From the NCBI GenBank assembly GCA_947492135.1, contig CANLQR010000013.1:1-35926 (forward strand): 35,926 nt of DNA, read 5' to 3'. The notes under the pieces are model-generated. The model did not search any database, was not told the origin of the DNA, and was given only the letters and a program-made list of their open reading frames with translations. Shown piece after piece: positions 13,411 through 33,780 of this stretch. The stretch's first letter is position 1. Each line of letters begins with the position of its first letter. Source of the DNA: Deltaproteobacteria bacterium. GTDB taxonomy: Bacteria > Myxococcota_A > Polyangia > Nannocystales > Nannocystaceae. The translations under genes were made by a program, and so were the position numbers.

Positions 13411-15423
13411 GAGGCCTACTCGATCGCCATCCTGCTGGTCGAGCGCATGGCGGCGATCAAGGCCAGCTTCACGGTGCAACTGTTCGCCACGGACATCGAC
13501 AGCCAGGCGATCGCCACCGCCCGCGCCGGTTTCTATCCGGCCGGCATCGCCGCCGATCTTTCGCCCGAACGTCTGGCGCGCTACTTCACCGCCGAAACCG
13601 GCGGCTATCGCATCCATAAAAGCATCCGCGACCTGCTGGTCTTTTCCGAGCAGGACGTCATCAAGGACCCTCCCTTTTCCAGGCTCGATCTGCTCAGTTG
13701 CCGCAATCTGCTGATCTACATGGGCACGGCCCTGCAGAAGAAACTCATCCCGCTCTTTCACTATGCCCTCAAGCCGGAGGGCACCTTGTTCCTCGGCACT
13801 TCCGAAAACGTGGGCGATTCTGACCGCCTGTTCACTGCCATTGACCGCAAGGCCAAGCTCTATCGGCGCAAGGACGACCTGCCGGACCCGCAGCGCGCGG
13901 CCGTCGGGCGGTTCGCGCCGCCCCTCACCGCGATGGATGCATCGGTCGGCTGGCCCGCAGAGCGCGGAGCCGCGAAGTCGGCGGCCACCGGGGCCCAATC
14001 GCTGCGCGAAACTACCGAGCAGGCCCTGCTCTCGCAGGTCATCGCCGTCGGCGCGCTGGTCACTGCCCAGGGCGATATTCTCTATCTGCACGGCCGGACC
14101 GGCATGTTTCTCGAGCCCAGCCCCGGCGAGGCCGGCATCAACAACATCCTCGAGATGGCCCGCGAGGGCCTGCGCCGCGAGCTGACCTCCAGCCTGCACA
14201 AGGCGGTGGGCACCCGCGACACCGTCGTCTACCCGGGCCTGCGCGTAAAAACCAACGGCCACTTCACCACCGTCAACCTCACCATCCGGCCAGTGACCTC
14301 CGGCCCGGGCGCGTCCCCGGAGGCGCCGCACTTTCTGGTCATCCTCGAGGATGCGCCGCTCGCGGCCCGGGCGCCGCCGCCCGACGTCGCCGCGGCCGAC
14401 GACCTCGCGCCCGGAGTGCACGGCACCATTTCACCGGACGCCGCCGAGCGCATCGCCGCGCTCAAGGCCGAACTCCGCGCCAAGGAGGACTATCTCCAGA
14501 GCACCACCGAGGAACTGGAAACCTCCACCGAAGAGCTCAAGTCGTCGAACGAGGAAATGCAGTCCGTCAACGAAGAGCTGCAATCCACCAACGAGGAACT
14601 GGAAACCTCCAAGGAAGAATTGCAGTCGCTCAACGAGGAGCTGGCCACCGTCAACACCGAGTTGCAGACCAGGGTGACCGATCTGTCGCGGGCCAACAAC
14701 GACATGAACAACCTGCTCGCCGGCACCGGCATCGGCACGGTGTTCGTGGACCATCAGCTGCGTATCATGCGTTTCACCCCCGCGGCCGGCGCCATCACCA
14801 ACCTGATCCTCACCGACATCGGCCGGCCCGTGGGGCACATCGTCTCGAATTTGGTGGGCTACACCAGCCTTGTCGCCGATGTGCGGGCGGTGCTCGACAC
14901 GCTGGCGTCCACAGAGGTGCAGGTGCAGACCATCGAGGGCAAGAGCTACGCGATGCGCATCCAGCCCTATCGCACGCTGGACAATGTGATCGAGGGCGCC
15001 GTGATCTCGTTTGTGGACATCACAGAAATGGTGAAGACGCGGGACGCGCTGCACGCCGCCAATGAGTTGCTCCGGCTCGCCGTGGTGGTGCGTGATGCGC
15101 ACGATGCCATCACCGTAAAAGATCTGGAGGGCCGCATCCTCGCGTGGAATCCGGGCGCGGTGCGGATGTACGGCTGGAGCGAAGCCGAGGCGCTGAAAAT
15201 GAACGTGCGCGACCGCATCCCATCCGCACAGCGGGAGCAGGAGGTCGAGAAAATGAACCAGCTCAGTCGCGCGGAACTTCTGGAACCCTATCGCACCCAA
15301 CGCCTGACCAAGTCCGGCCAGATCGTGGAGATTTCGATGATCGCGACCGCCCTGCTCAACGAAGCCGGGCAAATGTATGCCATCGCGACCACGGAACGGA
15401 CGATCGGAGAAGACGCCAAATGA
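13411..15423 (+). CDS. CheB-CheR-PAS type sensor protein, N-terminal half missing
   Basis: The remaining frame begins inside CheR: codons 13411-13446 read EAYSIAILLVER, the SAM-binding segment that should follow GCSTGE, and a TAG stands immediately before them at 13408. The first usable ATG is 13447, giving 658 residues. Present are the CheR C-terminal part (TVQLFATDIDSQAIATARAG, KDPPFSRLDLLSCRNLLIYM), a long Glu-rich coiled coil (TTEELETSTEELKSSNEE and related repeats), and two PAS domains. In complete relatives a CheB methylesterase and the rest of CheR precede this. The SAM pocket is incomplete, so methyltransferase activity is unlikely. It overlaps the next gene by 4 bp (ATGA). Codons use more A/T than those of neighbouring genes, which suggests transfer from another lineage. 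Confidence 0.8.
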   Translation, partial: EAYSIAILLVERMAAIKASFTVQLFATDIDSQAIATARAGFYPAGIAADLSPERLARYFTAETGGYRIHKSIRDLLVFSEQDVIKDPPFSRLDLLSCRNLLIYMGTALQKKLIPLFHYALKPEGTLFLGTSENVGDSDRLFTAIDRKAKLYRRKDDLPDPQRAAVGRFAPPLTAMDASVGWPAERGAAKSAATGAQSLRETTEQALLSQVIAVGALVTAQGDILYLHGRTGMFLEPSPGEAGINNILEMAREGLRRELTSSLHKAVGTRDTVVYPGLRVKTNGHFTTVNLTIRPVTSGPGASPEAPHFLVILEDAPLAARAPPPDVAAADDLAPGVHGTISPDAAERIAALKAELRAKEDYLQSTTEELETSTEELKSSNEEMQSVNEELQSTNEELETSKEELQSLNEELATVNTELQTRVTDLSRANNDMNNLLAGTGIGTVFVDHQLRIMRFTPAAGAITNLILTDIGRPVGHIVSNLVGYTSLVADVRAVLDTLASTEVQVQTIEGKSYAMRIQPYRTLDNVIEGAVISFVDITEMVKTRDALHAANELLRLAVVVRDAHDAITVKDLEGRILAWNPGAVRMYGWSEAEALKMNVRDRIPSAQREQEVEKMNQLSRAELLEPYRTQRLTKSGQIVEISMIATALLNEAGQMYAIATTERTIGEDAK

Positions 15424-18400
15424 AACCCGCGGACAATCCACCAGACGCCGCCAGCCTGCGCGCGCGCGCCGAGGCCGCCTTCCGCAAAACCGCGCCGTCA
15501 CCGGAAAGTCTGGCGGCGCTCTCGCCCGAAGCCACCGAGCGGATGCTCCACGAACTGCGCGTGCACCAGATCGAGCTGGAGATGCAGAACGAGGAGCTGC
15601 GCCGCGCGCAGTTGGAGCTGGAAGCCTCGCGCGCGAGCTACTTCGACCTCTACGATCTCGCCCCGGTCGGCTACTGCACCGTGGGCGGGAACGGAGTCAT
15701 CAGCGAGGCAAACCTGACCCTCGCCACCTTGCTGGGCGTGGCGCGCAGTGCGTTGGTGGGGAAGCCTTTCTCCCGCTTCATTGTGAACGAAGACGCGGAC
15801 AGCTTCTACCTCCTGAAGAAACAGGTCGCGGTGCAGGGGACGGCCGAGGACCCAGCTGCACCCGCTGCACCCGCTGCACCCGCTGCACCATCGCACCCAA
15901 CTGAACTGCGTTTGAAACGGGGCGACGGCACGCCCGTCTGGGTCAGCCTTGTGGTGGCCGCGGCCAGGGGAGAGAGCGGCGAATGGGCGCTGCGGGTGGT
16001 GGTGACCGACATCAGCGCACGGCGGGCCCGTGAAGCCGCCGAACGGCTGGAGGCCCAGACCCAGATGGAGATCCTCAATGCCATTCCCGCCCACGTCGCT
16101 CTGCTCGATCCGGAGGGCGTCATCCGCGTCACGAACGAAAGGTGGCGGCGATTCGGCACGGCCAATCTGCTGCAAGGTCCCGAATTCTGCCAAGGCCAGA
16201 ACTACCTGCAGGTGTGCGAGAGCGCCACTGGACCCTGCTCCGAGGAAGCAAAGGACGTAGCCGCCGGCATTCGTCGGGTGCTGCGTGGCGAAGTCGGTGA
16301 GTTCTCCCTCGAATATCCCTGCCATTCACCCACGGAGCAGCGCTGGTTCCGGCTGATGGCCACGTCGCTGCGTGAGGGGCACGGGGGCGGTGCCGTGGTC
16401 ATGCATGTCAACGTCACCGAGCGCAAGCTGGCGGAGGTCGCGCTGCGCGCGAGCCGGGAGCGCTATCGCGCAATGTTCGAGTCGTTGCTCGAGGGGTTTT
16501 GCATCATCGAAATGTTGTTCGACGAACAGGGCCGACCCGAGGACTACCTCTTCCTCGAGATCAATCCTGTATTCGAGTCGCAAACCGGCCTGCGGAATGT
16601 GCAGGGCAAGCGGATGCGCGAGCTCGCTCCCACGAATGAGTCACATTGGTTTGAAACTTACGGACGAGTCGCCGTGACGGGCGAATCGATCCAATTTGAG
16701 AACGAGGCGAAAGCACTGAATCGCTGGTTCGACGTGTCTGCCTACCGGCTGGGGGGAGAAGGTAGTCGAATGGTCGGGATCTTGTTCAATGACATCACCG
16801 AGCGAAAGCGGGCTTCTGCGGCGCTCGTCGCCAGCGAAGCGCGAGCCCGTGCCATCATCGAAGCGTCCCCGGTCGCCATGGCGCTGAACGACTCGGCCGA
16901 TTTCATCACCTTCGTCAATCCGGCCTTCACCGCGACCTTCGGCTATGAACTGGCGGACATCCCCACGCTCGCCGACTGGTGGCCCAAGGCCTACCCGGAC
17001 CCGGTTTATCGGCAGTTGGTGGCCGAGACCTGGCAAAAAGAGTTGGCTCGTTCCACGCAAACGGGAACGGACTTCGCACCGCTCGAGCTGAGTATCCGCT
17101 GCAAGGATGGGACCGATCGAATCACGCTGACCAGCGCCGCGCCCTTGGAGGACGCCTTTGCCGGAACCCACCTCGTGGTGCTGCATGACATCACCGAACG
17201 CAAACGGGCCGAGGCCCGTCTCCGTGCCGCGCAGAAGGACAATTTCGACCTTCGCGGGGCGCTGGATCAGCACGCCATCGTGGCGCTGACCGACGCCCGA
17301 GGCCGGATCACCTTCGTGAACGACAAGTTTTGCCAGATCTCCCAATATTCGCGGGAAGAGCTGCTCGGCCAGGATCACCGAATGATCAACTCGGGACAGC
17401 ATCCCAAGGAGTTCTTTCGCGAGATCTGGGCGACCATCCAGTCGGGGCGCGTTTGGCAAGGAGATATCTGCAACCGGGCGAAGGATGGCACGCTCTACTG
17501 GGTAGACACGACCATCGTTCCGTTCCTCGACGAGCACGGCGCCATCGACCGATACTTGGCGATCCGAAAGGACATCACCGAACGGTGGAAGGCGGAGGCG
17601 GCGTTGCGCGAGAGCGAGGAGCGCTTTCGCCAGTTGGCGGAGAATATCCAGGAGGTGTTCTGGATCAGCGACACCACCAAGAACGATGTAATCTACATCA
17701 GTCCCGCCTACGAAAAGATATGGGGGCGCACCTGCTCGCAGCTTTATCAGGACCCGCGCTCTTGGCTGGACGCGATCCATCCCGAGGACCGGCCGCGCAT
17801 CGTCCATGCGGCGCAGACAAAACAGGCGCTCGGCCTATACGATGAGACGTACCGCATCGTGCGTTCGGACGGCGAGGTGCGCTGGATCCACGACGAGGCT
17901 TTTCCCGTGAAGGGTCCCACCGGGGAAGTCCATCGCATCGTCGGCACGGCGGAGGACATCACGGCGCGCGTGGAGATGGAGGACCAAGTGCGCCAGTCGC
18001 AGAAGCTGCAAACCATCGGCACGCTCGCGGCCGGCATCGCGCACGATTTCAACAACATCCTTGCCGCCATCCTCGTCAATTCAGAGCTGGCGATCATAGA
18101 CACGGCTCCGGAGCACCCCGCCCGCGAGAGCCTCGAGCAGATCAACATCGCCTCGGAGCGCGCGAAGGGTCTGGTGCGGCAAATCCTGGCCTTCAGCAGC
18201 CAGCAGCCGATGGAGAGGCACTCGTTGGCCCTTGGTCCGGTGGTGCTGGAAGTCGCGAAACTTCTGCGGGCGACCATCCCTGCCCGCGTCCGGATCGACA
18301 CCTCGGTGGATCCTGATGCCCCGCCGGTGCTCGCCGATGCCACCCAGATGCACCAGATCCTCGTCAATCTCTGCACCAACGCCTGGCATGCCCTCGGCGA

Positions 18401-19520
18401 TCAGCCCGGATGCATCGAAGTGAAGCTCCGGTCCGTAGTGCTGGATGCTGAGGAAGCGAGCCGGATCGCGGGTCTGCGGCCCGGGCGCTTCGCCTGCCTT
18501 TCCGTTGGCGACGGTGGAGAGGGGATGGATGCCGCCACGCGCAAACGCATCTTCGACCCGTTCTTCACCACGAAGGGGCCGGGCAAAGGCACGGGCCTGG
18601 GGCTTTCCGTCGTGCATGGGATCGTCCGGGGAAATCGGGGAGCCATCCAGGTGGTCAGCCGGCCCGGCGAGGGCACGACCTTCACGCTGTACTTCCCCGC
18701 CTCCGTCTCGGCGCCCGCTACTACGGTGCCCGGTGGCAAGGCGCCGTCCTCTGGTCGGGACACGATCAGGCACATCCTCTACCTCGACGATGATGAATCA
18801 CTGCTGTTCGCCGCCGTGCGGACGCTGGAACGCCTCGGCTACCGGGTCTCGGCTTTCGTTCGCCCGGCGGATGCGGTGAAGGCGTTCCAGGACAATCCTG
18901 GCCAGTTCGATCTCGTGGTCACCGACATGAACATGCCGGAGGTCACCGGCCTGTCCGTCGCCAAGCATCTCCTGAAGCTCCGCGCCGATTTGCCGATCGT
19001 GCTCGTTTCCGGCAATATCGAAGAAGAGTTACGACAAGCCGCTCTCGCAGCCGGCATCCGTGGCATCCTGTGCAAACCATTTACGATGGATGAAATCAGC
19101 GAAGCCATCGGTCTGCTGGATTCGAATCAACGACAGCCCCGACCCGCAATGGCCCGCATTCTGATCATCGACGACGACCCGTCCGTCCTTTCCACATTGC
19201 GGCGGGCCCTGGAGCGAGTCGGCCATGAAGTCAGTGAGGCCGACAGTGGCCCCGCCGGGCTGGCGCAACTCGGTGCGGCCCCGTTCGACCTGGTTGTCAC
19301 GAACATCGTGATGCCGGAGATGGGGGGCATCGAAGTCATCGGGCGACTGCGCCGCGACTACCCGGATCTCGGGGTGATCGCCATGTCGGGCGACGGCAGG
19401 GCGCTGCCGGAGAGCCACATGGCCACTGCGCAGGCCATGGGTGCATCGAGCATCCTGATCAAGCCCTTCGCGATCGAAGAGCTGCTCGCGGCGATTGATG
19501 CGTTGTTGAAGCGCGAATAG
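15420..19520 (+). CDS. Multi-PAS hybrid histidine kinase with two receiver domains
   Basis: 1366 residues from an ATG overlapping the preceding stop, with a GGAGA ribosome site near 15406. Order: an N-terminal coiled coil (LHELRVHQIELEMQNEELRR), about six PAS/PAC sensor modules (several ending DITERK-like), HisKA with phosphoacceptor His875 in GIAHDFNNI, and an HATPase_c domain with the G boxes GDGGEGMDAATRK and GKGTGLGLSVVHGIV. Two receivers follow: REC1 from about 1117 with phosphoacceptor D1169 (VVTDMNMPE), and REC2 from about 1244 (MARILIIDDD). REC2 has Asn1295 where the phosphoacceptor Asp is expected. There are no transmembrane segments, so it should be a cytosolic sensor. A 9-bp tandem repeat at 15861-15887 encodes an Ala/Pro linker. 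It is intact and probably co-translated with the truncated CheR-PAS gene. Confidence 0.92.
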   Translation: MKPADNPPDAASLRARAEAAFRKTAPSPESLAALSPEATERMLHELRVHQIELEMQNEELRRAQLELEASRASYFDLYDLAPVGYCTVGGNGVISEANLTLATLLGVARSALVGKPFSRFIVNEDADSFYLLKKQVAVQGTAEDPAAPAAPAAPAAPSHPTELRLKRGDGTPVWVSLVVAAARGESGEWALRVVVTDISARRAREAAERLEAQTQMEILNAIPAHVALLDPEGVIRVTNERWRRFGTANLLQGPEFCQGQNYLQVCESATGPCSEEAKDVAAGIRRVLRGEVGEFSLEYPCHSPTEQRWFRLMATSLREGHGGGAVVMHVNVTERKLAEVALRASRERYRAMFESLLEGFCIIEMLFDEQGRPEDYLFLEINPVFESQTGLRNVQGKRMRELAPTNESHWFETYGRVAVTGESIQFENEAKALNRWFDVSAYRLGGEGSRMVGILFNDITERKRASAALVASEARARAIIEASPVAMALNDSADFITFVNPAFTATFGYELADIPTLADWWPKAYPDPVYRQLVAETWQKELARSTQTGTDFAPLELSIRCKDGTDRITLTSAAPLEDAFAGTHLVVLHDITERKRAEARLRAAQKDNFDLRGALDQHAIVALTDARGRITFVNDKFCQISQYSREELLGQDHRMINSGQHPKEFFREIWATIQSGRVWQGDICNRAKDGTLYWVDTTIVPFLDEHGAIDRYLAIRKDITERWKAEAALRESEERFRQLAENIQEVFWISDTTKNDVIYISPAYEKIWGRTCSQLYQDPRSWLDAIHPEDRPRIVHAAQTKQALGLYDETYRIVRSDGEVRWIHDEAFPVKGPTGEVHRIVGTAEDITARVEMEDQVRQSQKLQTIGTLAAGIAHDFNNILAAILVNSELAIIDTAPEHPARESLEQINIASERAKGLVRQILAFSSQQPMERHSLALGPVVLEVAKLLRATIPARVRIDTSVDPDAPPVLADATQMHQILVNLCTNAWHALGDQPGCIEVKLRSVVLDAEEASRIAGLRPGRFACLSVGDGGEGMDAATRKRIFDPFFTTKGPGKGTGLGLSVVHGIVRGNRGAIQVVSRPGEGTTFTLYFPASVSAPATTVPGGKAPSSGRDTIRHILYLDDDESLLFAAVRTLERLGYRVSAFVRPADAVKAFQDNPGQFDLVVTDMNMPEVTGLSVAKHLLKLRADLPIVLVSGNIEEELRQAALAAGIRGILCKPFTMDEISEAIGLLDSNQRQPRPAMARILIIDDDPSVLSTLRRALERVGHEVSEADSGPAGLAQLGAAPFDLVVTNIVMPEMGGIEVIGRLRRDYPDLGVIAMSGDGRALPESHMATAQAMGASSILIKPFAIEELLAAIDALLKRE

Positions 19521-19777: not shown

Positions 19778-20488
19778 ATGCACCGCAGCCTCCGCGATCA
19801 TCTCGTGTCCGAGCGCCACCACGGTGGACGCGGGGCGTGGCTACGCGCCGCGGTGCTCGGGGCCAACGACGGCCTGATCTCGACCGCGAGTCTGATCGTC
19901 GGGGTCGCGGCGGCCGATAGCTCCCGCACGGCGATCCTCGTCGCGGGCGTCGCGGGGCTCACCGCGGGTGCGCTCTCGATGGCCGCGGGCGAGTACGTCT
20001 CGGTGAGCTCGCAGCGCGACACCGAACGCGCCGACCTCGAGATCGAGAAGCGCGAGCTCGCGACCGCCCCGGACGCCGAGTACGCCGAGCTGGCGATGAT
20101 CTATCGCAAGCGTGGCCTCAGCCCCGAGCTCGCCGAGCAGGTGGCCGCCGAGCTCTCGCAGCAGGATCGCCTGCGGGTGCACGCACGCGACGAGCTCGGC
20201 ATCGACATCGACGCGCTCGCCAATCCGATCCAGGCCGGCCTCGTCTCCGCCGCGAGCTTCGTTGCCGGCGCGGTGATCCCCATCATGGTCGTACTCGTCG
20301 CATCGGAGGGCCTGCGCGTGGTCATGACGATGGCCGTCGCGATGCTCGGGCTCGTCGTGCTCGGGGGTGTCGGTGCGCACCTCGGCGGCGCGCCGGTGGG
20401 TCGGGCGTCGCTGCGGGTGCTGGTGGGCGGTGCGCTCGCGCTGGTGATCTCGCTCGGGATCGGGCGACTCACCGGCACCGCGTTGTGA
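19778..20488 (+). CDS. VIT family (VIT1/CCC1) iron/manganese transporter
   Basis: 236 residues from the ATG at 19778; a GTG nine bases earlier is the alternative. The pattern is that of vacuolar-iron-transporter homologues: RAAVLGANDGLISTASLIVG in the first membrane helix, then GALSMAAGEYVSVSSQRDTE, which carries the conserved metal-facing Gly/Glu and the start of the amphipathic loop. A long Glu-rich metal-binding loop follows (IEKRELATAPDAEYAELAMI and on), then three C-terminal helices. VIT/CCC1 proteins exchange divalent Fe or Mn for protons to detoxify the cytosol. There is no adjacent iron regulator. The gene is intact and its composition is like the native flanks rather than the kinase block before it. 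Confidence 0.9.
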   Translation: MHRSLRDHLVSERHHGGRGAWLRAAVLGANDGLISTASLIVGVAAADSSRTAILVAGVAGLTAGALSMAAGEYVSVSSQRDTERADLEIEKRELATAPDAEYAELAMIYRKRGLSPELAEQVAAELSQQDRLRVHARDELGIDIDALANPIQAGLVSAASFVAGAVIPIMVVLVASEGLRVVMTMAVAMLGLVVLGGVGAHLGGAPVGRASLRVLVGGALALVISLGIGRLTGTAL

Positions 20489-20515
20489 GCGGCAGTCGAG
20501 GCGTGCGGCGCTCGG

Positions 20516-20857
20516 ATGACGCCGATCGCGGAGATCACCGACAAGCGCGTGGCGAGCGAGATGCCCCTCGCACGTCGGCTCTCCCAGCGATGCACCCGAG
20601 CCAATCGTCTCGCCGGCGGTGCGATCCCGTGGCCACCGCCCGAGACCGGATTGCCCGCGGGTTTGGTCGCGATCGCGGCCCGTGCCCTCGCGCCGGGAAG
20701 CGCCGAACGCTTCGCATCCGCCGAGCAGATGGCGACCGCGTTGGCCGAAGGACTCGCCGCGCGCAGCGACATTCCCACCTACGCCGAACTCGGTGCGCTC
20801 GTGCGCGAGGGATTCGAGCCCGAGCGCGCGCGGATAGCCGGTCTGATTGGCCGCGGC
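20516..20857 (+). pseudogene. Ser/Thr protein kinase C-lobe fragment
   Basis: From about 20600 the frame reads as the end of a PknB-type kinase: GLPAGLVAIAARALAPGSAE then RFASAEQMATALAEGL, the typical final helices (rALxxdPxxRFxSAxxMxxAL). A tail follows (IPTYAELGALVREGFEPERA, RIAGLIGR) of the sort seen after the kinase domain in Nannocystales-like kinases. No HRDLKPxN, DFG or APE motif precedes it, so the front of the kinase is gone. At about 20857 the frame changes to a beta-helix protein. The N-lobe fragment 8 kb upstream on the same strand has the complementary part missing. Confidence 0.65.
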
Positions 20858-21960
20858 AGATCGAGCCCGGTACGACGATCCTTGGCGATACGGCCACGCG
20901 GGGAGCCCTGGTGGTGCGTCCGGGTGCTCGGCTCATCGCCGAGGGCACGGCCGACAAACCGATCGTGTTCACCAGTTCGCGCCCGCCCGGGGAGCGCCGC
21001 GCCGGTGACTGGGGCGGCGTGCTGTTGCTCGGCCAAGCACCGACCAACGCCCACGACCCCGATGGCAAGCCGACCTCGGGCCACGTCGAGGGCCTGACCG
21101 CTCGCGGGTCGTTCGGAGGTGATCGCATCGATGACGACAGCGGCGTGATGCGGTGGGTTCGCATCGAGTACAGCGGCGTCGCCATCGGACCCAACAACGA
21201 GATCAACGGCCTCACGCTCGCGGGCGTTGGTCGCGGCACCGTGATCGATCACGTCGCCGTTCGTCACACCGTCGACGACTGTTTCGAGTTCTTCGGCGGC
21301 ACGGTCGACGCCCATCATCTGCTGTGCCAATCCGCCGGCGACGACGCGTTCGATTGGGATCTGGGCTACACCGGACGGCTGCAGTTCTTGATCGCGCTCG
21401 ACATGTCCGAGGTATCGGGCGCGCACGGGATCGAAGGCGACAGCCAGGCATCGGCGCTCGCGACCACGCCGCGCAGCGCTCCAACCGTGTTCAACGCGAC
21501 GCTGTGCAGCCCGGTCACCGAGTTCGCCGGCGAGCGCTACGGCGTACTCGCCCGCAACGGCACCGCTGGGCAGATCCACAACGCGCTGATCATCGGATTC
21601 GATGCCGGCCTCGATGTCCGGGGCCGCATGACCGCGTTGAGCTTGGACCACTTGGTGTTCGGCGGTCAGCGCATCGGCGCTGTCGCGTACGCCGAGACCT
21701 CGCCCGAAGCCGGCGGCGCCGTCGAGGACGACGACGAGGGATTCGATGAACTCGCGGTGTACTCGGCGAACAATCTCGTCGATCCGAAGGGACTGCCCGA
21801 ATGCACGGGCGCCGGCCCGCGGCCGTTCGCCGCCGCCGAACTCCACGCCGATGCGCTCGCGCCACCCGACGACGGCTTCTTCGACCCCACTGCGCGCTTC
21901 GTCGGTGCCATCCGCGACAGCGACGACAACTGGCTGGTTCCCACCTGGGTCGGCGACTGA
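20857..21960 (+). pseudogene. Beta-helix surface protein, 5' end lost at junction with kinase fragment
   Basis: The protein-like part begins at about 20860 with IEPGTTILGDTATRGALVVR, then PGARLIAEGTADKPIVFTSS and RRAGDWGGVLLLGQAPTN. These are the typical rungs of secreted right-handed beta-helix proteins that carry lipoprotein or signal sequences. About 365 residues remain, including turns such as GGTVDAHHLLCQSAGDDAFD and a closing WVGD. The frame is open back to 20485 but that part is Arg-rich and lies over the kinase fragment in another frame, so the signal peptide and first rungs are missing. It may be silent. It ends 13 bp before a perfect hairpin shared with the opposing lipoprotein gene. 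Confidence 0.7.
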
Positions 21961-22029: not shown

Positions 22030-23208
22030 TCAGCCGGCGGTGCAGCCGAGGATCTCGCCATCGCCGACCTCGGCGATGATGCGGCTGGTGCCCGCTTCGA
22101 AGACCACGCCGACCTCGGTGTCGCCCGCGAAGAACTGCACCCAGTCGACCGCGATGCCGGCGATCTCGCCCGAGATGTAGAAAAACTCGCCGCCATCGGG
22201 CACGTCGAACAACACGTCGAGGTCGGCTTCTTGTCCCGGGACCAGGAAGCCGAGGTGCAACGCGGTCACCCCGAACTGCTCGGTCTGCAGCTCGCTGAGG
22301 CTGCCGCGCTCGAGCAGCGCGGTATCGACACCGAGACCGTCGACCAGCTCGCTGCTCGACTCGACGCCGAACGAGGGGACCGTGTCGAACGTGCACGCGG
22401 CGACGCCAAGCACCTCGCAACACGCAGCCTTGACGAACTGCCCGTTGACCGGGTTGTGGCACAGGCCGCCGGAGTTGGGCTTTGCGTCGTCGGGGCACTC
22501 GTCCGCGGGTTCATCGAGGTCGACCTGCGCGTCGCAGGCTTCGGGCACACTTTGCAGCGAAAGTTCGTCGGCCGAGATGGCCTGCACGCACTCGGCAGCG
22601 CAGCACGAGTTCATGGCGAACCTGCCGTTTTCGCCGCGGCAGATGTCGCGGTCCTCGCCTTCCACATTGACCGTCTCCCACACCGCGCCGCCGCAGCTAT
22701 CGGCGGCGAGCGATGCCGCGAGAAAACAGCACATGTCGTCTTCGAACTTGTTATTGCCGTCGACGCAGGCGCCACCGGAGTTGCGATGCGCCGCGGGGTC
22801 GCATAGATCCGAGCAACATGCCGCCTCGACGAACTGACCGTTGGAGGCGTTGCGGCAGCGCTGCAGCGAGGCGTCGCCCGCGACCTTGGCGATCTCGACC
22901 TTCTCGGGGCAGGACGTGGCGTCCTGATAGGCCGAGAAAAGGCCGGCGTCCGCGCAACACTCGGCGTTCTCGAAGCCCGAGGCGTTGAAGCAGGTCGCGA
23001 CCACGCGATTGGTGAGCTTGTCGCCGTCGGCCGAGGTCTCTTTGTCCCCAGCAAGTAGCTCGAGTGACAGCTCCTCGGCTGCGGCGCACTCGACGTCATC
23101 GAGATCATCAGCCTTGCCGCCGCTGGCGCCACCATCGGAGGAACCTTCGGATTGTGAGGCGCAAGCGACGACGAAAAGAAGGGGAAGGATTTCGATGCGC
23201 TTCTTCAT
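22030..23208 (-). CDS. Cys-rich lipoprotein with five CC repeats
   Basis: 392 residues with a lipoprotein signal (LPLLFVVAC, lipid Cys16) and a Ser/Gly/Asp linker. Five repeats follow, each a single Cys, then 10-12 residues with a Gly/Asn-x-Phe core, then a CC pair: C73/C84-85, C118/C131-132, C148/C160-161, C190/C202-203 and C250/C263-264. The clearest are RCRNASNGQFVEAACC and LCHNPVNGQFVKAACC. Additional Cys residues surround them. After about residue 275 a Cys-poor beta-rich domain follows (VPGQEADLDVLFDVPDGGEF). The Cys pattern suggests disulfide-rich modules on the outer surface. I do not recognise a named family. A GGAG ribosome site lies 7 bp before the ATG, and a terminator follows. 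Confidence 0.85.
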   Translation of the reverse strand: MKKRIEILPLLFVVACASQSEGSSDGGASGGKADDLDDVECAAAEELSLELLAGDKETSADGDKLTNRVVATCFNASGFENAECCADAGLFSAYQDATSCPEKVEIAKVAGDASLQRCRNASNGQFVEAACCSDLCDPAAHRNSGGACVDGNNKFEDDMCCFLAASLAADSCGGAVWETVNVEGEDRDICRGENGRFAMNSCCAAECVQAISADELSLQSVPEACDAQVDLDEPADECPDDAKPNSGGLCHNPVNGQFVKAACCEVLGVAACTFDTVPSFGVESSSELVDGLGVDTALLERGSLSELQTEQFGVTALHLGFLVPGQEADLDVLFDVPDGGEFFYISGEIAGIAVDWVQFFAGDTEVGVVFEAGTSRIIAEVGDGEILGCTAG

Positions 23209-23350
23209 GGCAAACTCCAGGGGCGGCCCGCTCCGTCAGGGGGGCGGATGTGGTCGGCTCATCGCCGATGTAGGTGTCCCTAAAGTGCAGGACCCTGCCG
23301 TTTGGTTCCCGGTCCCGGACGAAGATCGTGGATGTTGCCAGCGTGACCGG

Positions 23351-23374
23351 GGCGTTGCAGAGCCTGGCAACGCC
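23351..23374 (-). terminator. Possible stem-loop after the renalase-like remnant
   Basis: A perfect 8-bp inverted repeat, GGCGTTGC and GCAACGCC with an 8-base spacer, lying 6 bp beyond the stop codon of the renalase-like remnant on the minus strand. There is no T-run, so it is only a candidate transcript end. The rest of the 172-bp gap up to the lipoprotein start at 23208 shows no gene. Confidence 0.35.
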
Positions 23375-23380
23375 AACCTT

Positions 23381-23933
23381 TAGGAGGGTGCGACTTCTCC
23401 GCGCTCGTTGTTCGCGCCGAGAGCCATCCGCACGCGATGCGCGAGGTCCATGCCGCTGACGAGCGCACCCTCGATGCGCGGACCACTGCACCAGTCGCCT
23501 GCGGCGCCGAGGCCCAGGCTCGGATCGAAGAGCGAGTCGTCGATCTCACCGGGTTCCAGCGATCGGTCGGGGTCGGCTCAGTGGACGCCGACCGGGCCCC
23601 GCCGCGCTCGCGGATGATCACCGCGCCGTCCCACCGGGCGATCACACCGCGGGCGCGCCAGTCGTTGACGACCGCGTCGAGGCGAGGGTCGCGGGTGGTG
23701 AAGTACTGCGCGCCGTGGTCGAAGGCCCACGCGCCCTCGCGCCGCGTGCTGCAGCGGCCACCCAGGCCGCGGGACCGCTCGAACACGCGGACCGCAACGC
23801 CAGCATCGGCGAGAGCGCGCGCGCACATCAACCCCGCGAGGCCGGCGCCGACGACCGCGACGCGCGGCGCGGTGTCGGTCGGCGGCGTGGTGCTCAGCGC
23901 GTCCGTCGGCCCCTTGGCGTCATCCGGCCGTGA
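23381..23933 (-). pseudogene. Renalase-like FAD/NAD(P) oxidoreductase, internal deletion and frameshift
   Basis: The front part reads VAVVGAGLAGLMCARALADA with the GxGxxG FAD motif, then VFERSRGLGGRCSTRREGAW and FDHGAQYFTTRDPRLDAVV, clearly the N-terminus of a renalase/amine-oxidase-like flavoprotein. At about 23590 the match ends. In another frame the true C-terminus follows: IDDSLFDPSLGLGAAGDWCS, then GPRIEGALVSGMDLAHRV, closing with TAA at 23381. Complete family members are about 310-330 residues; roughly 150 middle residues are missing here. No ATG, GTG or TTG start is in frame between the preceding TGA (23934) and the FAD motif, so the start is lost or CTG is used. It follows the damaged catalase-like gene in the same direction. 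Confidence 0.8.
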
Positions 23934-25989: not shown

Positions 25990-26682
25990 TCAATCGCCGA
26001 TGACGATCTCTGCCGCGTTCTGGGCCGGGTAGTCGATCACCGTGGTGTACGTCTGCGGATACGCGATCTGGGCCCCGCCGCTCAGCGTGCACAGCCCGTC
26101 GGGCTCGGGGGCGTCGCACTCACAGGTACCCGCGCACACCCGATAGACGGTCAGCGCGAACTCGTAGAATCCCGGGGGCGGCAGATCGCGTCGCAGGCAG
26201 GTGGTCTGGCAGCCGGCTCCACCCGCGCACTGCTCGACCATCTCCAGCGGCACCAACCAGGTGCCGGGCCACGTGCCGACGCCCATCCCGTCGGGGTCCA
26301 ACCGCGCGGTGTCGGGGACCGCACAGTCGTTGCAGCCTTGGTTGCAGTCGGCGGCTCCGACGAAGTCGTCGCACAGCACCGGCGAGCACTCGCCGAGGTC
26401 GTACCGCACGACCTCGTCGCTCGCGAGCGCCGTGATGTCGAAGCCGATCGCGGCGCCACACCCCTGGGGATGGAAGTAAACCGGCGCGCCGCCGGTGTGC
26501 CGCACCGTGATCGTCACTGCCGGGCCGGTCGTCGTGTCCGACACATATTGCTCGCAATCGACGGGCGCGGACTCGGAGCCGGTGATGGCCGCGGTCGTCG
26601 AATCGCCGGCTGCGGGAGCCGGTCCAGCGCAGCCTTCCGAGATCAACAACGCGGCGAGGAGACGACGTGGTGCGCAGGGCAT
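25990..26682 (-). CDS. Hypothetical secreted Cys-rich protein, probable lipoprotein
   Basis: 230 residues. The start MPCAPRRLLAALLISEGCAG looks like a signal peptide, but the lipobox is atypical (SEG before Cys18), so lipidation is uncertain. After a Thr/Ser/Ala linker the mature part has many Cys residues in pairs (CNQGCNDC, CAGTCECD) and a beta-sandwich feel (AVTITVRHTGGAPVYFHPQG; GFYEFALTVYRVC). No known family is recognised. It lies between the convergent lipoprotein gene (25386) and another lipoprotein upstream on the same strand (26713), 30 bp apart, so the two minus-strand genes may be one transcript. Confidence 0.68.
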   Translation of the reverse strand: MPCAPRRLLAALLISEGCAGPAPAAGDSTTAAITGSESAPVDCEQYVSDTTTGPAVTITVRHTGGAPVYFHPQGCGAAIGFDITALASDEVVRYDLGECSPVLCDDFVGAADCNQGCNDCAVPDTARLDPDGMGVGTWPGTWLVPLEMVEQCAGGAGCQTTCLRRDLPPPGFYEFALTVYRVCAGTCECDAPEPDGLCTLSGGAQIAYPQTYTTVIDYPAQNAAEIVIGD

Positions 26683-27277: not shown

Positions 27278-28807
27278 TTAGTAGTCGAGATTGTTGTCCG
27301 CCTGGCAGTACGTATGCGTCACGACGCTGCCGGCAGAGCTGATGACGGTAGGATCGACGATGAGCTGCATGCAGTTGCCTTCGATGTTGTGCTCGGCGTC
27401 GAGTACAACTACCATGTGCTTGTCATCGGGCTCGTTGTCGGTGATGGTGCGGATCAGGGATCCTGCGTCCACCACGCATTCGCCGTCCGACTTCGCGCGC
27501 ACCTGCACGGAGAGTGTCACGCCGGAGATGTCGTCCTTGTCCGCATCGTTCATGTCCTCGCGTTGTTGTGTGACGCACTTGAGAATCACCTTGCCGCTCG
27601 GGATCGCGCCGCCGAACACGATCTCTTTGTGCACCTGGCTCGACGAGGTGAACGTGTTCGTTCGCATCCACATCAAGTCGTGGAGGCGAAGCCGCAGACG
27701 CCCGAGCCCGTACTGCCGGTCCGCGCCGCAACGCAGTCGCCCGCCGGAGATGCACGCCGGACTGGTGGCGCCGTTGGCACCGTTGCCGGCAGTGGCGCGG
27801 TCGCCCATCGACAGCATCACGGTATGGAGTCGCCCGGGATCGTCGATCCAGTCGAGCCCGAGGTCGAGCATCCGGTGTTTCACCTGCAGTGCGGCACCCG
27901 CGACTTGCGGCGCCGCGTAGCTGGTGCCCTCCTCCGAGACGTTGCCGGTCGACTGCGGTCCATCCACAGAGACTTCGCCGTAGGTCCCGTCCTCGGTCGT
28001 GACGTGACCCGGCCGGCCGGGTGCGACCAGGTCGACCATCGACATCGACGTCGAGAACTCTGCGAACCCGATCTTCGACATGCCGCCCCCGCGATTGCTG
28101 TAGTCCGAGAACGTCCACGAGGCATGCGAGGATGAATCGTCAGGGTCGACTGCACCGACGGCGAACGCCTTCGGGATGTCCGCGGGAGATCGAACCTCAC
28201 ACACATCCATGCCTACCCCGTCGTTGTGTGTGATCGTAACCGGCAGCACACCATCATCCCATGCATCCTCGAGCGCGTCCTCGAGTACGTGCCATGAGGC
28301 CGCGTCGCAGGCGCCCACGGTGTCTCCATTCGAGGCGTTCAGTACGTCGACGGTGACACAGTTCGTGCCGATCCCGTGTGCACAAGCGTACCCCTTCACT
28401 TTCCCTGACTCGGTCCCCGCGGCGTAGTAGTGCAGCTCGGCCTCGCGCGCGTAGCCGGTCGCGGGGAACTCCCAGGACGACAGCCCGCTCGCGATCGCGC
28501 TGTCGTGGCCGTCGGCTTGATCCTGCGAGTAGTCGCCGATCGCGATCGACGTGACTATGGTGCCGTGGGCTTGTTCGTCGGTGAAGTTCGACGTTGCCGT
28601 GCAGCCGGAGCCGGTGCAGTTGAACCTCGCTCTCGTCCGACTGCTGGGATCGCAGGACGCGTCACCTAGGAAGCACGCCTCGTCCTGGAAACCGTAACTC
28701 TCCAGTACTCCGAGCAGCAGCTCGTTCCCCGAGCTGGGTTGGCCGTCGTAGCCGGAGTCGTGGTAGCCGTTGGAACCGTTGAACGTGCGGATGTCACCGA
28801 GGGGCAC
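27278..28807 (-). CDS. Subtilisin-like (S8) serine peptidase, N-terminal region lost or frameshifted
   Basis: 509 residues from a GTG at 28807. The triad is visible: D17 in HDSGYDG, H81 in EQAHGTIVTS and S296 in GTSYAAPQVAG. The oxyanion Asn would be N195 in ITHNDG, where most subtilases have AGN. The C-terminal third is beta-rich and may be a surface or P-like domain. There is no signal peptide or propeptide: the same frame stays open for 69 codons back to the stop of the Hsp70 gene but without a start, and a neighbouring frame there reads LDFVLAKFAERREML, which could be propeptide shifted by one base. Family members are normally exported, so this copy is probably not, unless the lesion is a sequence error. 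Confidence 0.75.
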   Translation of the reverse strand: MPLGDIRTFNGSNGYHDSGYDGQPSSGNELLLGVLESYGFQDEACFLGDASCDPSSRTRARFNCTGSGCTATSNFTDEQAHGTIVTSIAIGDYSQDQADGHDSAIASGLSSWEFPATGYAREAELHYYAAGTESGKVKGYACAHGIGTNCVTVDVLNASNGDTVGACDAASWHVLEDALEDAWDDGVLPVTITHNDGVGMDVCEVRSPADIPKAFAVGAVDPDDSSSHASWTFSDYSNRGGGMSKIGFAEFSTSMSMVDLVAPGRPGHVTTEDGTYGEVSVDGPQSTGNVSEEGTSYAAPQVAGAALQVKHRMLDLGLDWIDDPGRLHTVMLSMGDRATAGNGANGATSPACISGGRLRCGADRQYGLGRLRLRLHDLMWMRTNTFTSSSQVHKEIVFGGAIPSGKVILKCVTQQREDMNDADKDDISGVTLSVQVRAKSDGECVVDAGSLIRTITDNEPDDKHMVVVLDAEHNIEGNCMQLIVDPTVISSAGSVVTHTYCQADNNLDY

Positions 28808-31521: not shown

Positions 31522-32122
31522 ATGTCGGGTTTGATTTTGCCGGGAAAACCGTCCTACCGCGGCGCGCTGTGTCATGGCGGACTCGCGGCGGTCACCGCCG
31601 ATGGCGAGCGCGGCGCACGCGTGCTCGCGTCCGTCGATCCCGAACACCTGCGCACGATCCGGGCCGCTGGCAGGCTCGCGTGGCTGTCCGCCGTAGCGCT
31701 CGACGAGATCAACGCCGCGTACCTTCGCGAAGCCGGCGCGGCCGGGTACCTCGACTTCTGGCGGCGCTACACGGTCGGCGCCGTGGAAACCACGCTCTTT
31801 GGCGGGCTGTTCAACGGCGCCTTGCGGATCTTCGGCCGCTCACCCAGCGGGTTGCTCAATCAAGTGGATCGGTCGGGCGTGGCAGATCACCACCCGCGAC
31901 TACGGCCTGCCCTCGGTGACAGAACACGGCGATGACGTTCGGGTGACGATGCAGGGCCTGTTGCCCGAGTGTCGACGCGTCACAGTGGCGTTGTCGATGC
32001 AGGCGTCGGTGGTGGCCCTCATCGAGCTGACCAGGTACGTGCCTGAGGTGTCGTGCGACCTCGACCGGCTCGAAGCCGACGGGAGCTTCGAGATCACGGC
32101 GCGCTGGACCCCGATGGCGTAG
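31522..32122 (+). pseudogene. Gene of unknown function split by a frameshift near 31860
   Basis: Three ATGs stand in a row (31516, 31519, 31522). GGAG at 31512 gives the best spacing for the last. The first frame reads AVTADGERGARVLASVDPEH, AVALDEINAAYLREAGAAGY and VETTLFGGLFNGALRIFGRS to GLLN, then turns to nonsense. In the next frame the protein resumes with WIGRAWQITTRDYGLPSV, VRVTMQGLLPECRRVTVALS and closes ADGSFEITARW. Joining the two at about 31858-31864 gives one coherent protein of about 200 residues, so a single-base change has broken it. It loosely resembles the roughly 200-residue myxobacterial paralogues such as TIGR02265, but I cannot assign it. It diverges from DUF2760-Hsp70 across a 141-bp gap. 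Confidence 0.6.
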
Positions 32123-32196
32123 GCCGGCTCGAGCCCGCAGCAGGCGGTTCTGAAAAACGCTCCGCGTTCTTTCGGCAGCCTGCTAGAACTCGCCAG

Positions 32197-33780
32197 GTGT
32201 TTTGCCGCTCGCGCCTGTCCCCGCTCGTGATCGCCATGCTCGTGTCGGGCTGTCCGAGCAGCGGCAGCCTCGACAACACCGCGGCCGTGGATGGCGGCGG
32301 AATCCCGGCCGGCGCGCTGGAGCACCGGGCCGCCAACGATCAGGCGAACGCCGCGTATCGCTGGGTCGACATCATGCTCGAGGCCACTGGGCGCGAGGTC
32401 GACAAGGTCGGTGCGCGCCCGACCATCATCTCACGGCAGATGGCGATCCCGATGACCGCGATGTACGACGCCTGGGCAGCGTTCGACGAACGGGCGGTGG
32501 GGACCCGCATGGGCAGCGCACTGCGACAACCCGAGGCCGCACGAACGATCGTCAACAAGGAGATCGCGATCGCGTACGCGATGTACACCACGCTGGTCGA
32601 TCTGTTCCCCGCCGATGCGCCGTGGCTCGCCGACCGCATGCGCGAGATGGGCCACGACCCCACCGCGACGCCAACCGACTTCACCACGCCGGCGGGTATC
32701 GGACGGGCCGCGGCGCTGGCCGTACTGACCTACCGCAGGGCCGACGGTGCCAACCAAAGCGGCGATGCGCCAGGCGCCGATGGGCAACCCTACGGGGACA
32801 CCACCGGCTACACGCCCAAGAACACCATCGACAAGATCGTCGATCCCGACCACTGGCAGCCGATCGCGTTCGAAGATGGCAAGGGCGGCAGCTTTGCGCC
32901 GGGCTTCCTGACGCCGCAGTGGGGCGGCGTGCGACCGTTCGCGCTCGAACGCGGCGACCAGTTTCGGCCACCACCACCGCCGCTGGTGGGCTCTGCGCAG
33001 CTCGAGCAGGACACCAAAGAGTGCATCGCGCTCAACGGCAACCTGACGCTCGAGCACAAGGCGATCGTCGAGTTCATGCGCGACGGGCCCCGCTCGACCG
33101 GACAGTCGGGCCACTGGCTGCAGTTCGCACAGGATGTCTCTCGCCGAGACAAGCACGACCTCGATACCGACGTGAAGTTGTTCTTCGCGGTCGCCAACAC
33201 CGCGTTCGATGCGTTCATCGCCGCATGGGACGCCAAGCGTCACTACGACAGTTCCCGCCCGTGGACCCTGGTGCGCCACTACTACGGTGAGACGCCGATC
33301 GTCGGCTACCTCGGCGCGTGCAAGGGTGCGGGCACGATCAAGGGCAACGAGTGGTACCCCTACTCGCCGCGCACCTTCTTGACCCCGCCGTTTCCCGGCT
33401 TCCCTTCGGGCCACAGTACCGTCAGCGCCGCGTCATCAAAGATGCTCGCGCTGTTCACCGGCAGCGACGAGTTTGGCGCCTACGCCCGCCACGAGGCTGG
33501 CCAATACACCGAGACCGGGTGCAGCACCGCGCAGATGCAAGCCCGCGAGGGCCAGCCTTCGCAGTCCGTGGCGACGTCGCGCGAGATCATCTTGAAGATG
33601 CCCACGTTCTCCGCGGTCGCAACGATGGCTGGGATCTCGCGGGTGATGGGCGGCTACCATATCCAGGCCGACAACACCGCTGGCCTGGCGCTGGGTCGCA
33701 AGATCGCAGAGTACAGCTGGCCGAAGTACCAGGCCTACTTCGACGGCACGGCGATCGAGGCCAGCGCCCCGGCAAAGTGA
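32197..33780 (+). CDS. Vanadium haloperoxidase/PAP2 superfamily lipoprotein
   Basis: About 527 residues from a GTG at 32197. The N-terminus is a lipoprotein signal (PLVIAMLVSGC). The full active-site signature is present near the C-terminus: KRHYDSSRP (K-x6-RP), FPSGHST (PSGH) and SRVMGGYHIQAD (SR-x5-H-x3-D). These residues bind vanadate in haloperoxidases or phosphate in PAP2 phosphatases. The length and long N-terminal helical domain match bacterial vanadium-dependent haloperoxidase-like proteins rather than small membrane PAP2 phosphatases. Export as a lipoprotein places it in the periplasm or on the surface. Halogenating activity is a prediction only. No SD is seen before the GTG; an upstream start would overlap the preceding frameshifted gene. 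It converges on the kinase gene 21 bp away. Confidence 0.88.
   Translation: MFCRSRLSPLVIAMLVSGCPSSGSLDNTAAVDGGGIPAGALEHRAANDQANAAYRWVDIMLEATGREVDKVGARPTIISRQMAIPMTAMYDAWAAFDERAVGTRMGSALRQPEAARTIVNKEIAIAYAMYTTLVDLFPADAPWLADRMREMGHDPTATPTDFTTPAGIGRAAALAVLTYRRADGANQSGDAPGADGQPYGDTTGYTPKNTIDKIVDPDHWQPIAFEDGKGGSFAPGFLTPQWGGVRPFALERGDQFRPPPPPLVGSAQLEQDTKECIALNGNLTLEHKAIVEFMRDGPRSTGQSGHWLQFAQDVSRRDKHDLDTDVKLFFAVANTAFDAFIAAWDAKRHYDSSRPWTLVRHYYGETPIVGYLGACKGAGTIKGNEWYPYSPRTFLTPPFPGFPSGHSTVSAASSKMLALFTGSDEFGAYARHEAGQYTETGCSTAQMQAREGQPSQSVATSREIILKMPTFSAVATMAGISRVMGGYHIQADNTAGLALGRKIAEYSWPKYQAYFDGTAIEASAPAK

Follow-up and report, generated by a model that had tools for sequence, protein, structure and literature searches.

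The window analysed here is a 35,926-nt stretch of DNA from a member of the Nannocystaceae. On its minus strand, a reading frame with an ATG at 23208 and a stop codon at 22030-22032 encodes a 392-aa predicted lipoprotein, hereafter the window protein (Table 1). Orthologs at 54% (G020), 50% (G012) and 38% (G007) identity indicate that the gene is real. The N-terminus, MKKRIEILPLLFVVAC, is a predicted signal peptide ending in a lipobox cysteine, as in bacterial lipoproteins; A15-C16 is invariant in 4/4 orthologs, and 24 cysteines follow C16. The gene seems to be solitary, since its downstream neighbour (20485-21960, plus strand) is convergent. Upstream of it lies a same-strand reading frame with amine-oxidase similarity (23280-23831). 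Elsewhere, the window carries a 230-aa reading frame with 16 cysteines, a lipobox-like start and no Pfam family (25993-26682, minus strand), a DUF6851 plus vanadium-chloroperoxidase-type PAP2 protein (32053-33780, plus strand), and a CheR/PAS protein beside a 1458-aa multi-PAS hybrid histidine kinase with response-regulator domains (13447-19520, plus strand).

Table 1. Positions of the gene and of the features of its product within the window
Feature	Position	Strand	Basis
Whole gene: 392-aa predicted lipoprotein, five four-cysteine modules and C-terminal domain	22030..23208	-	orthologs, codon-position GC bias
Predicted signal peptide and lipobox, residues 1-16 (...LFVVAC, lipidated Cys = C16)	23161..23208	-	read from sequence
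GGKADD box (residues 30-35), a candidate sorting signal lying 14 residues past the lipidated Cys	23104..23121	-	
Module 1 (C41, C73, C84-C85)	22954..23088	-	aligned five-module proteins
Module 2 (C100, C118, C131-C132); modelled alone as beta-hairpin and helix at CC	22813..22911	-	
Module 3 (C136, C148, C160-C161)	22726..22803	-	aligned five-module proteins
Module 4 (C172, C190, C202-C203)	22600..22695	-	aligned five-module proteins
Extra cysteine pair C207/C225 between modules 4 and 5	22534..22590	-	invariant in 7/7 sequences
Module 5 (C238, C250, C263-C264)	22417..22497	-	aligned five-module proteins
C-terminal domain (C272 to C389)	22033..22395	-	common to P-domain proteins L002, L006, L011 and L017

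A four-cysteine module and its predicted bonds

The original prediction described a lipoprotein with five C-x(10-12)-CC motifs, and these were found at residues 73-85, 118-132, 148-161, 190-203 and 250-264, with gaps between C and CC of 10, 12, 11, 11 and 12 residues. The G/N-x-F core that it proposed is present in modules 2-5 (NGQF, NNKF, NGRF and NGQF), whereas module 1 reads SGF. The Cys-poor stretch expected after the array was also recovered, with no cysteine between C272 and C389; in this region the low-confidence full-length model places strands at 343-389. That model was poor overall (mean pLDDT 48, from four sequences), as might be expected if the pattern were chance cysteine clustering or a low-complexity artefact. 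However, five C-x(10-13)-CC motifs occurred in 0/20,000 composition-preserving shuffles of the sequence after the lipid Cys (maximum 3), and orthologs and paralogs occur in two classes; this conservation refutes such an origin, to which we assign a negligible probability. At least five CC pairs alone occurred in 86/20,000 shuffles of the same mature sequence.

The motif had been read as a three-cysteine unit, but each copy has a further upstream cysteine, and the true unit is Ca..Cb..NG-x-F..CcCd. The unit was set at four cysteines because distant matches (L018, L019, L020 and L021) carry compact four-cysteine units of the form C-x-G-A-x-x-D-x-x-G-x-C-R-x-x-[ND]-G-x-F-A-x-x-x-C-C, in tandem in L018 and L021. 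The 24 cysteines thus partition into five four-cysteine units plus the pairs C207/C225 and C272/C389. The array cysteines are kept throughout the aligned five-module proteins with one exception: module 4 of L004 has lost both the Ca that corresponds to C172 and the Cc that corresponds to C202. Bonded cysteines tend to be lost pairwise in exported proteins, so this joint loss makes Ca-Cc, and hence Cb-Cd, the likely bonds. Because L044 and L004 are the same protein, the co-loss counts as one event, seen in a single genome, and it suggests a Ca-Cc plus Cb-Cd disulfide pattern.

The same loss bears on whether the CC pairs are instead redox-active or metal-binding thiols, the protein being a thiol buffer or metal store. 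The CC pairs are nearly invariant, a VIT-family transporter gene lies in the window, and in L043 and L044 a DsbA-like lipoprotein gene immediately precedes the ortholog, all of which would fit such a function. However, the co-loss pairs Ca with Cc and not both cysteines of a CC, the protein is exported with an even cysteine count (24), and the DsbA-like neighbourhood, confined to one genus, is weak because each of eight genomes holds 15-24 DsbA-like matches. We therefore consider a thiol or metal function very improbable. DsbA was likewise rejected as a dedicated partner, because G020 and G012, where it precedes the ortholog, belong to one genus and DsbA-like matches are abundant. The expansion of DsbA-like domains was seen in G000, G001, G002, G003, G007, G012, G020 and G502, often with two or more domains per long frame (open frames up to 1590 aa).

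Modelled alone from an input of 19 module rows, module 2 reached a mean pLDDT of 80.9 in the best of five models, with strands at 6-11 and 14-22 and a helix at 31-34 at the CC pair; the other four models stayed at 55-65. Each module would combine a beta-hairpin and the conserved N-G-x-F turn with a short helix starting at the CC pair. With this model, Foldseek returned no PDB match at E ≤ 0.001 (best E 2.6) and VIA-align 0/384 chains at Z of 2 or more, both being little informative at 39 residues.

An exposed loop after Cb in each module could alternatively make the protein a multi-headed inhibitor that guards the cell against proteases of its own or of other origin. The residue following Cb differs by position in modules 1-5 of the window protein (F, R, V, R and H), multi-headed inhibitors vary the loop residue from head to head, and the window contains a subtilase gene (27281-28807). 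Yet no similarity to inhibitor families was found in Pfam or PDB sequences, the conserved part is the NG-x-F core and not the loop after Cb, and the subtilase is about 4 kb distant; inhibition is an improbable function for the array.

Consistent with the original prediction, no named domain fitted in Pfam, NCBIfam or PDB sequences. For the window protein, Pfam at E ≤ 10 gave noise only (AIF-MLS, E 7.6) and NCBIfam no match. Against PDB sequences, neither the window protein nor the alignments of its orthologs (A1) and of the modules (A6) gave a match, and alignment A3 gave short non-significant matches only. PADLOC found no match in three proteins, and no relative was found among plasmids and viral contigs. 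The TB domain (PF00683) of fibrillins and latent TGF-beta binding proteins is likewise an extracellular disulfide module, but only 2/25 modules matched it, at best with 15.0 bits against a cut-off of 22.2, and the whole window protein did not match. These matches, in two orthologs (E 0.022 and 0.036; 15.0 and 14.3 bits), aligned residues 12-28 of module 5 (33-aa cut) with positions 1-17 of 44. The TB domain has eight cysteines including a CCC triplet, in contrast to the four cysteines and CC pairs of the modules. Kringles (hepatocyte growth factor, angiostatin) have the short motif CRNPdG in common with the modules, but the matches were not significant (E 0.26-1.9 over 10-11 residues; best E 0.26 over 11 residues), and kringle size and cysteine number are unlike those of the module. 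The myxobacterial Cys-rich repeat type (TIGR02232, DUF4215) gave no NCBIfam or Pfam match at E ≤ 10 for the window protein, and its models matched none of further sets of 10, 10 and 7 proteins. These repeats are also small Cys-rich units repeated in exported myxobacterial proteins (PMC3325183 among others). Since no named domain fits and the unit recurs in proteins with other partners, as shown below, we conclude that it is a genuine, little-described disulfide module, apparently undescribed.

Relatives, fixed array order and the C-terminal domain

Profile A2, to which the window protein, its orthologs and L011 contributed 19 motifs, matched 9/317 class genomes at E ≤ 0.01, and modules at E ≤ 0.001 were present in 5 genomes of a 377-genome phylum sample. 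These genome counts are lower bounds: with L036 as query, the first-look filter missed the window protein, although blastp of L036 against it gave E 1.4e-13. The family extends beyond orthologs of the window protein, the unit occurring in other proteins with 1-3 modules. Two module sets without common members matched by hhalign at 97.3% (with a pairwise, not a database, E-value). The five-module array is rare: seven such proteins were found in four same-family genomes among the 317, namely the window protein, L003 and L040 (G020), L004 and L036 (G012), and L005 and L038 (G007). An eighth, L050 (G502), comes from another class, and the four-cysteine unit is kept across all eight.

The modules had been described as degenerate, but they are not simply degenerate repeats, the five positions being individually conserved. 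When each module of the eight proteins was compared with proteins of the other groups, its closest counterpart stood at the same position in 180/240 comparisons, with 48 expected (one residue of an L004 copy was altered as a cutting mark). This excess of same-position matches indicates that the array most likely formed once and that its members diverged in place.

The eight proteins occur in a long form with the C-terminal domain between C272 and C389 (window protein, L003 and L004) and a short form with a brief tail (L005, L036, L038, L040 and L050); the short paralogs lack the C-terminal domain. By hhalign, this domain matched a domain of P-domain proteins (96.9%, E 1.8e-10). L017 has a sub-threshold P-domain match (E 0.0019; 18.7 vs 21 bits), and the ends of L002, L006 and L011 are similar to L017 by eye.

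Several single loci were also recorded. The short paralog of G020 (L063, G020:C4) has one in-frame stop between the GKADD box and module 1 and may be a decayed gene or an assembly error. In G068:C61 (L019 and L210), a module stands at the N-terminus of one protein with a CxxCH motif and a GGG-I-x-REL stretch, and another at the C-terminus of the adjoining reading frame with cytochrome-like CxxCH motifs. In L020 (526-1464, G215), one module is fused to a PNK3P polynucleotide 3'-phosphatase domain, the only match above a curated cut-off among 10 proteins (E 2e-24). The fusion protein has a lipobox-like start, and enzymes of this type are not usually found in such a setting.

Gene pairing of short paralogs with a PF04185 phosphoesterase

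Four short paralogs are of B type (L036, L040, L038 and L050), and a PF04185 phosphoesterase gene adjoins three of them on the same strand. The distance from the lipoprotein stop to the phosphoesterase was 4 nt for L036 (G012), 14 nt for L040 (G020) and 16 nt for L038 (G007), and the enzymes matched PF04185 at E 1e-73, 1.5e-74 and 5.4e-73, respectively. All three enzymes have an RR signal peptide, and the pairings span two genera. Between G012 and G007 the enzymes are 54% and the lipoproteins 44% identical, which indicates that the pairing survived long divergence. The fourth paralog, L050, is followed by a gene resembling aldehyde dehydrogenase by eye and has no phosphoesterase. Similarly, the window gene, its two closest orthologs (L003 and L004) and L005 are not beside one, so the phosphoesterase link of the window protein is by paralogy, at about 31% identity between paralog and window protein.

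In G000, the genome of the window, and in G003, an orthologous phosphoesterase (47-54% identical) follows an unrelated Cys-rich lipoprotein at a distance of 42 or 36 nt, which makes a Cys-rich lipoprotein the constant companion of this enzyme. The unrelated lipoproteins (L200, 2726-3400; L201, 1907-2590) have 22 or 21 cysteines and no CC. Next to distant homologs of the enzyme (G000 C431, G007 C655, G002 C146 and G303 C184), no Cys-rich lipoprotein was seen. A general phosphoesterase link, considered because of a PhoD gene near L011 and the PNK3P fusion of L020, was rejected: at five other module loci no phosphoesterase neighbour was recognised by eye, and the link is therefore claimed for the short paralogs only.

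Pseudomonas PlcH is also a PF04185 enzyme. PMC3601568 describes PlcH-PlcR as a secreted heterodimer of a Tat-exported phospholipase and a co-expressed chaperone-like accessory protein. The likeness, drawn by gene context, is that of an exported phosphoesterase or phospholipase with a co-encoded partner; however, the PlcR gene lies downstream of its enzyme, whereas here the lipoprotein gene lies upstream and its product is Cys-rich.

Alternatively, the protein could work without an enzyme partner, as a surface adhesin or recognition protein whose modules bind a peptide, a glycan or a lipid head-group; the ligands would then differ between the five positions, or one repeated ligand would occupy them all. 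Their occurrence on other exported proteins (L011 and L017) and the individual conservation of each position would agree with this, and Cys-rich receptors such as TraA exist in myxobacteria (PMC3325183, PMC6626042). Binding domains of this kind seem unlikely to us, because searches of Pfam, PDB sequences and structures gave no similarity to a known binding domain and the operon link with the phosphoesterase would be left unexplained.

The GGKADD box and the proposed role

Behind the lipobox, [GD]-K-x-D occupies the position of the GGKADD box in 12/12 aligned sequences, the window protein included. K-x-D behind a lipobox-like start was present at 20/20 fetched loci, in proteins of many kinds, a sample biased by selection for reaching the box. 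We searched 317 genomes with a GGKADD DNA pattern and its reversed control. The results showed 32 matches vs 0 reversed in seven genomes of genera g1, g5 and g10, 9 vs 0 in G060 (f12), and 1 match in seven g12 genomes. Two sets of 20 matches, both chosen by hand, were then compared, the first taken from G020 (7/12), G060 (9/9), G001 (3/4) and G007 (1/6) and the second from other listed genomes. A signal peptide and lipobox 13-16 residues before GGKADD were found in 14/20 of the first set and, at 18 residues, in 2/20 of the second (Fisher p 0.0002), under a looser lipobox rule written after viewing the list; the first rule gave 12/20 vs 2/20. At least 5/6 of the first-set misses were not such lipoproteins by eye or stood in other contexts, and L140 is lipoprotein-like and was missed. 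Additionally, TKGDD or TKGDQ stands at the same distance in the phosphoesterases of G000 and G003 and in the lipoproteins before them. The lysine of the box lies 14-20 residues downstream of the Cys (16 after C16 in the window protein), leaving out an outlier at 26 and an antisense match at 15 that are not such proteins. Box loci (L102-L121, L125-L144, L200 and L201) were recorded in several Nannocystaceae-like genomes and in G060.

The box resembles the Bacteroidetes LES, which according to PMC5080379 is a short motif near the lipidated Cys marking a subset of lipoproteins, with lysine mainly at +3. Both would be short motifs at a set distance behind the lipidated Cys in a lipoprotein subset, but the window protein, with its lysine at 16 residues, does not have the optimal C-X-K-(D/E)2-X. 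Nor does it carry the signal of Myxococcus xanthus extracellular-matrix lipoproteins, alanine at +7 according to PMC3222651; its +7 residue is Gly22. In the open-access literature searched, no description of a GGKADD-type box was found, and GKADA occurred only in virus papers. The GGKADD box may be an undescribed sorting signal, a candidate drawn from sequence comparison. The lipobox and this box are the only two features that speak for the cell surface, where we infer that the protein would reside. It is possible, though rather doubtful, that a G-K-x-D-D box about 13-18 residues behind the Cys serves Nannocystaceae and relatives as a lipoprotein sorting or surface-display signal unlike known ones, and that the five-module proteins are its clients, a new disulfide scaffold holding or maturing exported phosphoesterases at the envelope.

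The anatomy, with its array, four-cysteine unit, conservation by position and common C-terminal domain, is well supported, as is the gene pairing, while bond pattern, stalk, surface location and binding are inferred. From the paralogs mainly, the window protein most likely serves exported proteins as a lipid-anchored scaffold or partner that is locked by disulfides. The full reading, which we favour tentatively, is that of a lipid-anchored, exported array acting as a stalk or partner. In its mature part, five small modules locked by disulfides would stand in a fixed order ahead of a distinct C-terminal domain. Together the modules probably form a stalk that is stiff, resists proteases and would bind a partner with its faces. 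The paralogs that lack the C-terminal domain probably have as their partner the exported PF04185 phosphoesterase whose gene comes next in the operon, and the lipoprotein would chaperone, anchor or present this enzyme. The stalk of the window protein would instead present the C-terminal domain to a ligand.

If this reading is right, these bacteria possess a small module with two disulfides that matches nothing in Pfam, NCBIfam or the sequences of solved structures; its fixed arrangement in units of five has been maintained in two bacterial classes, and it has an enzyme partner that can be tested. To our knowledge, the choice of lipoprotein destination is open for most phyla outside Bacteroidetes, and the GGKADD box, if it is a true signal, would offer a handle on that choice in these Gram-negative bacteria.
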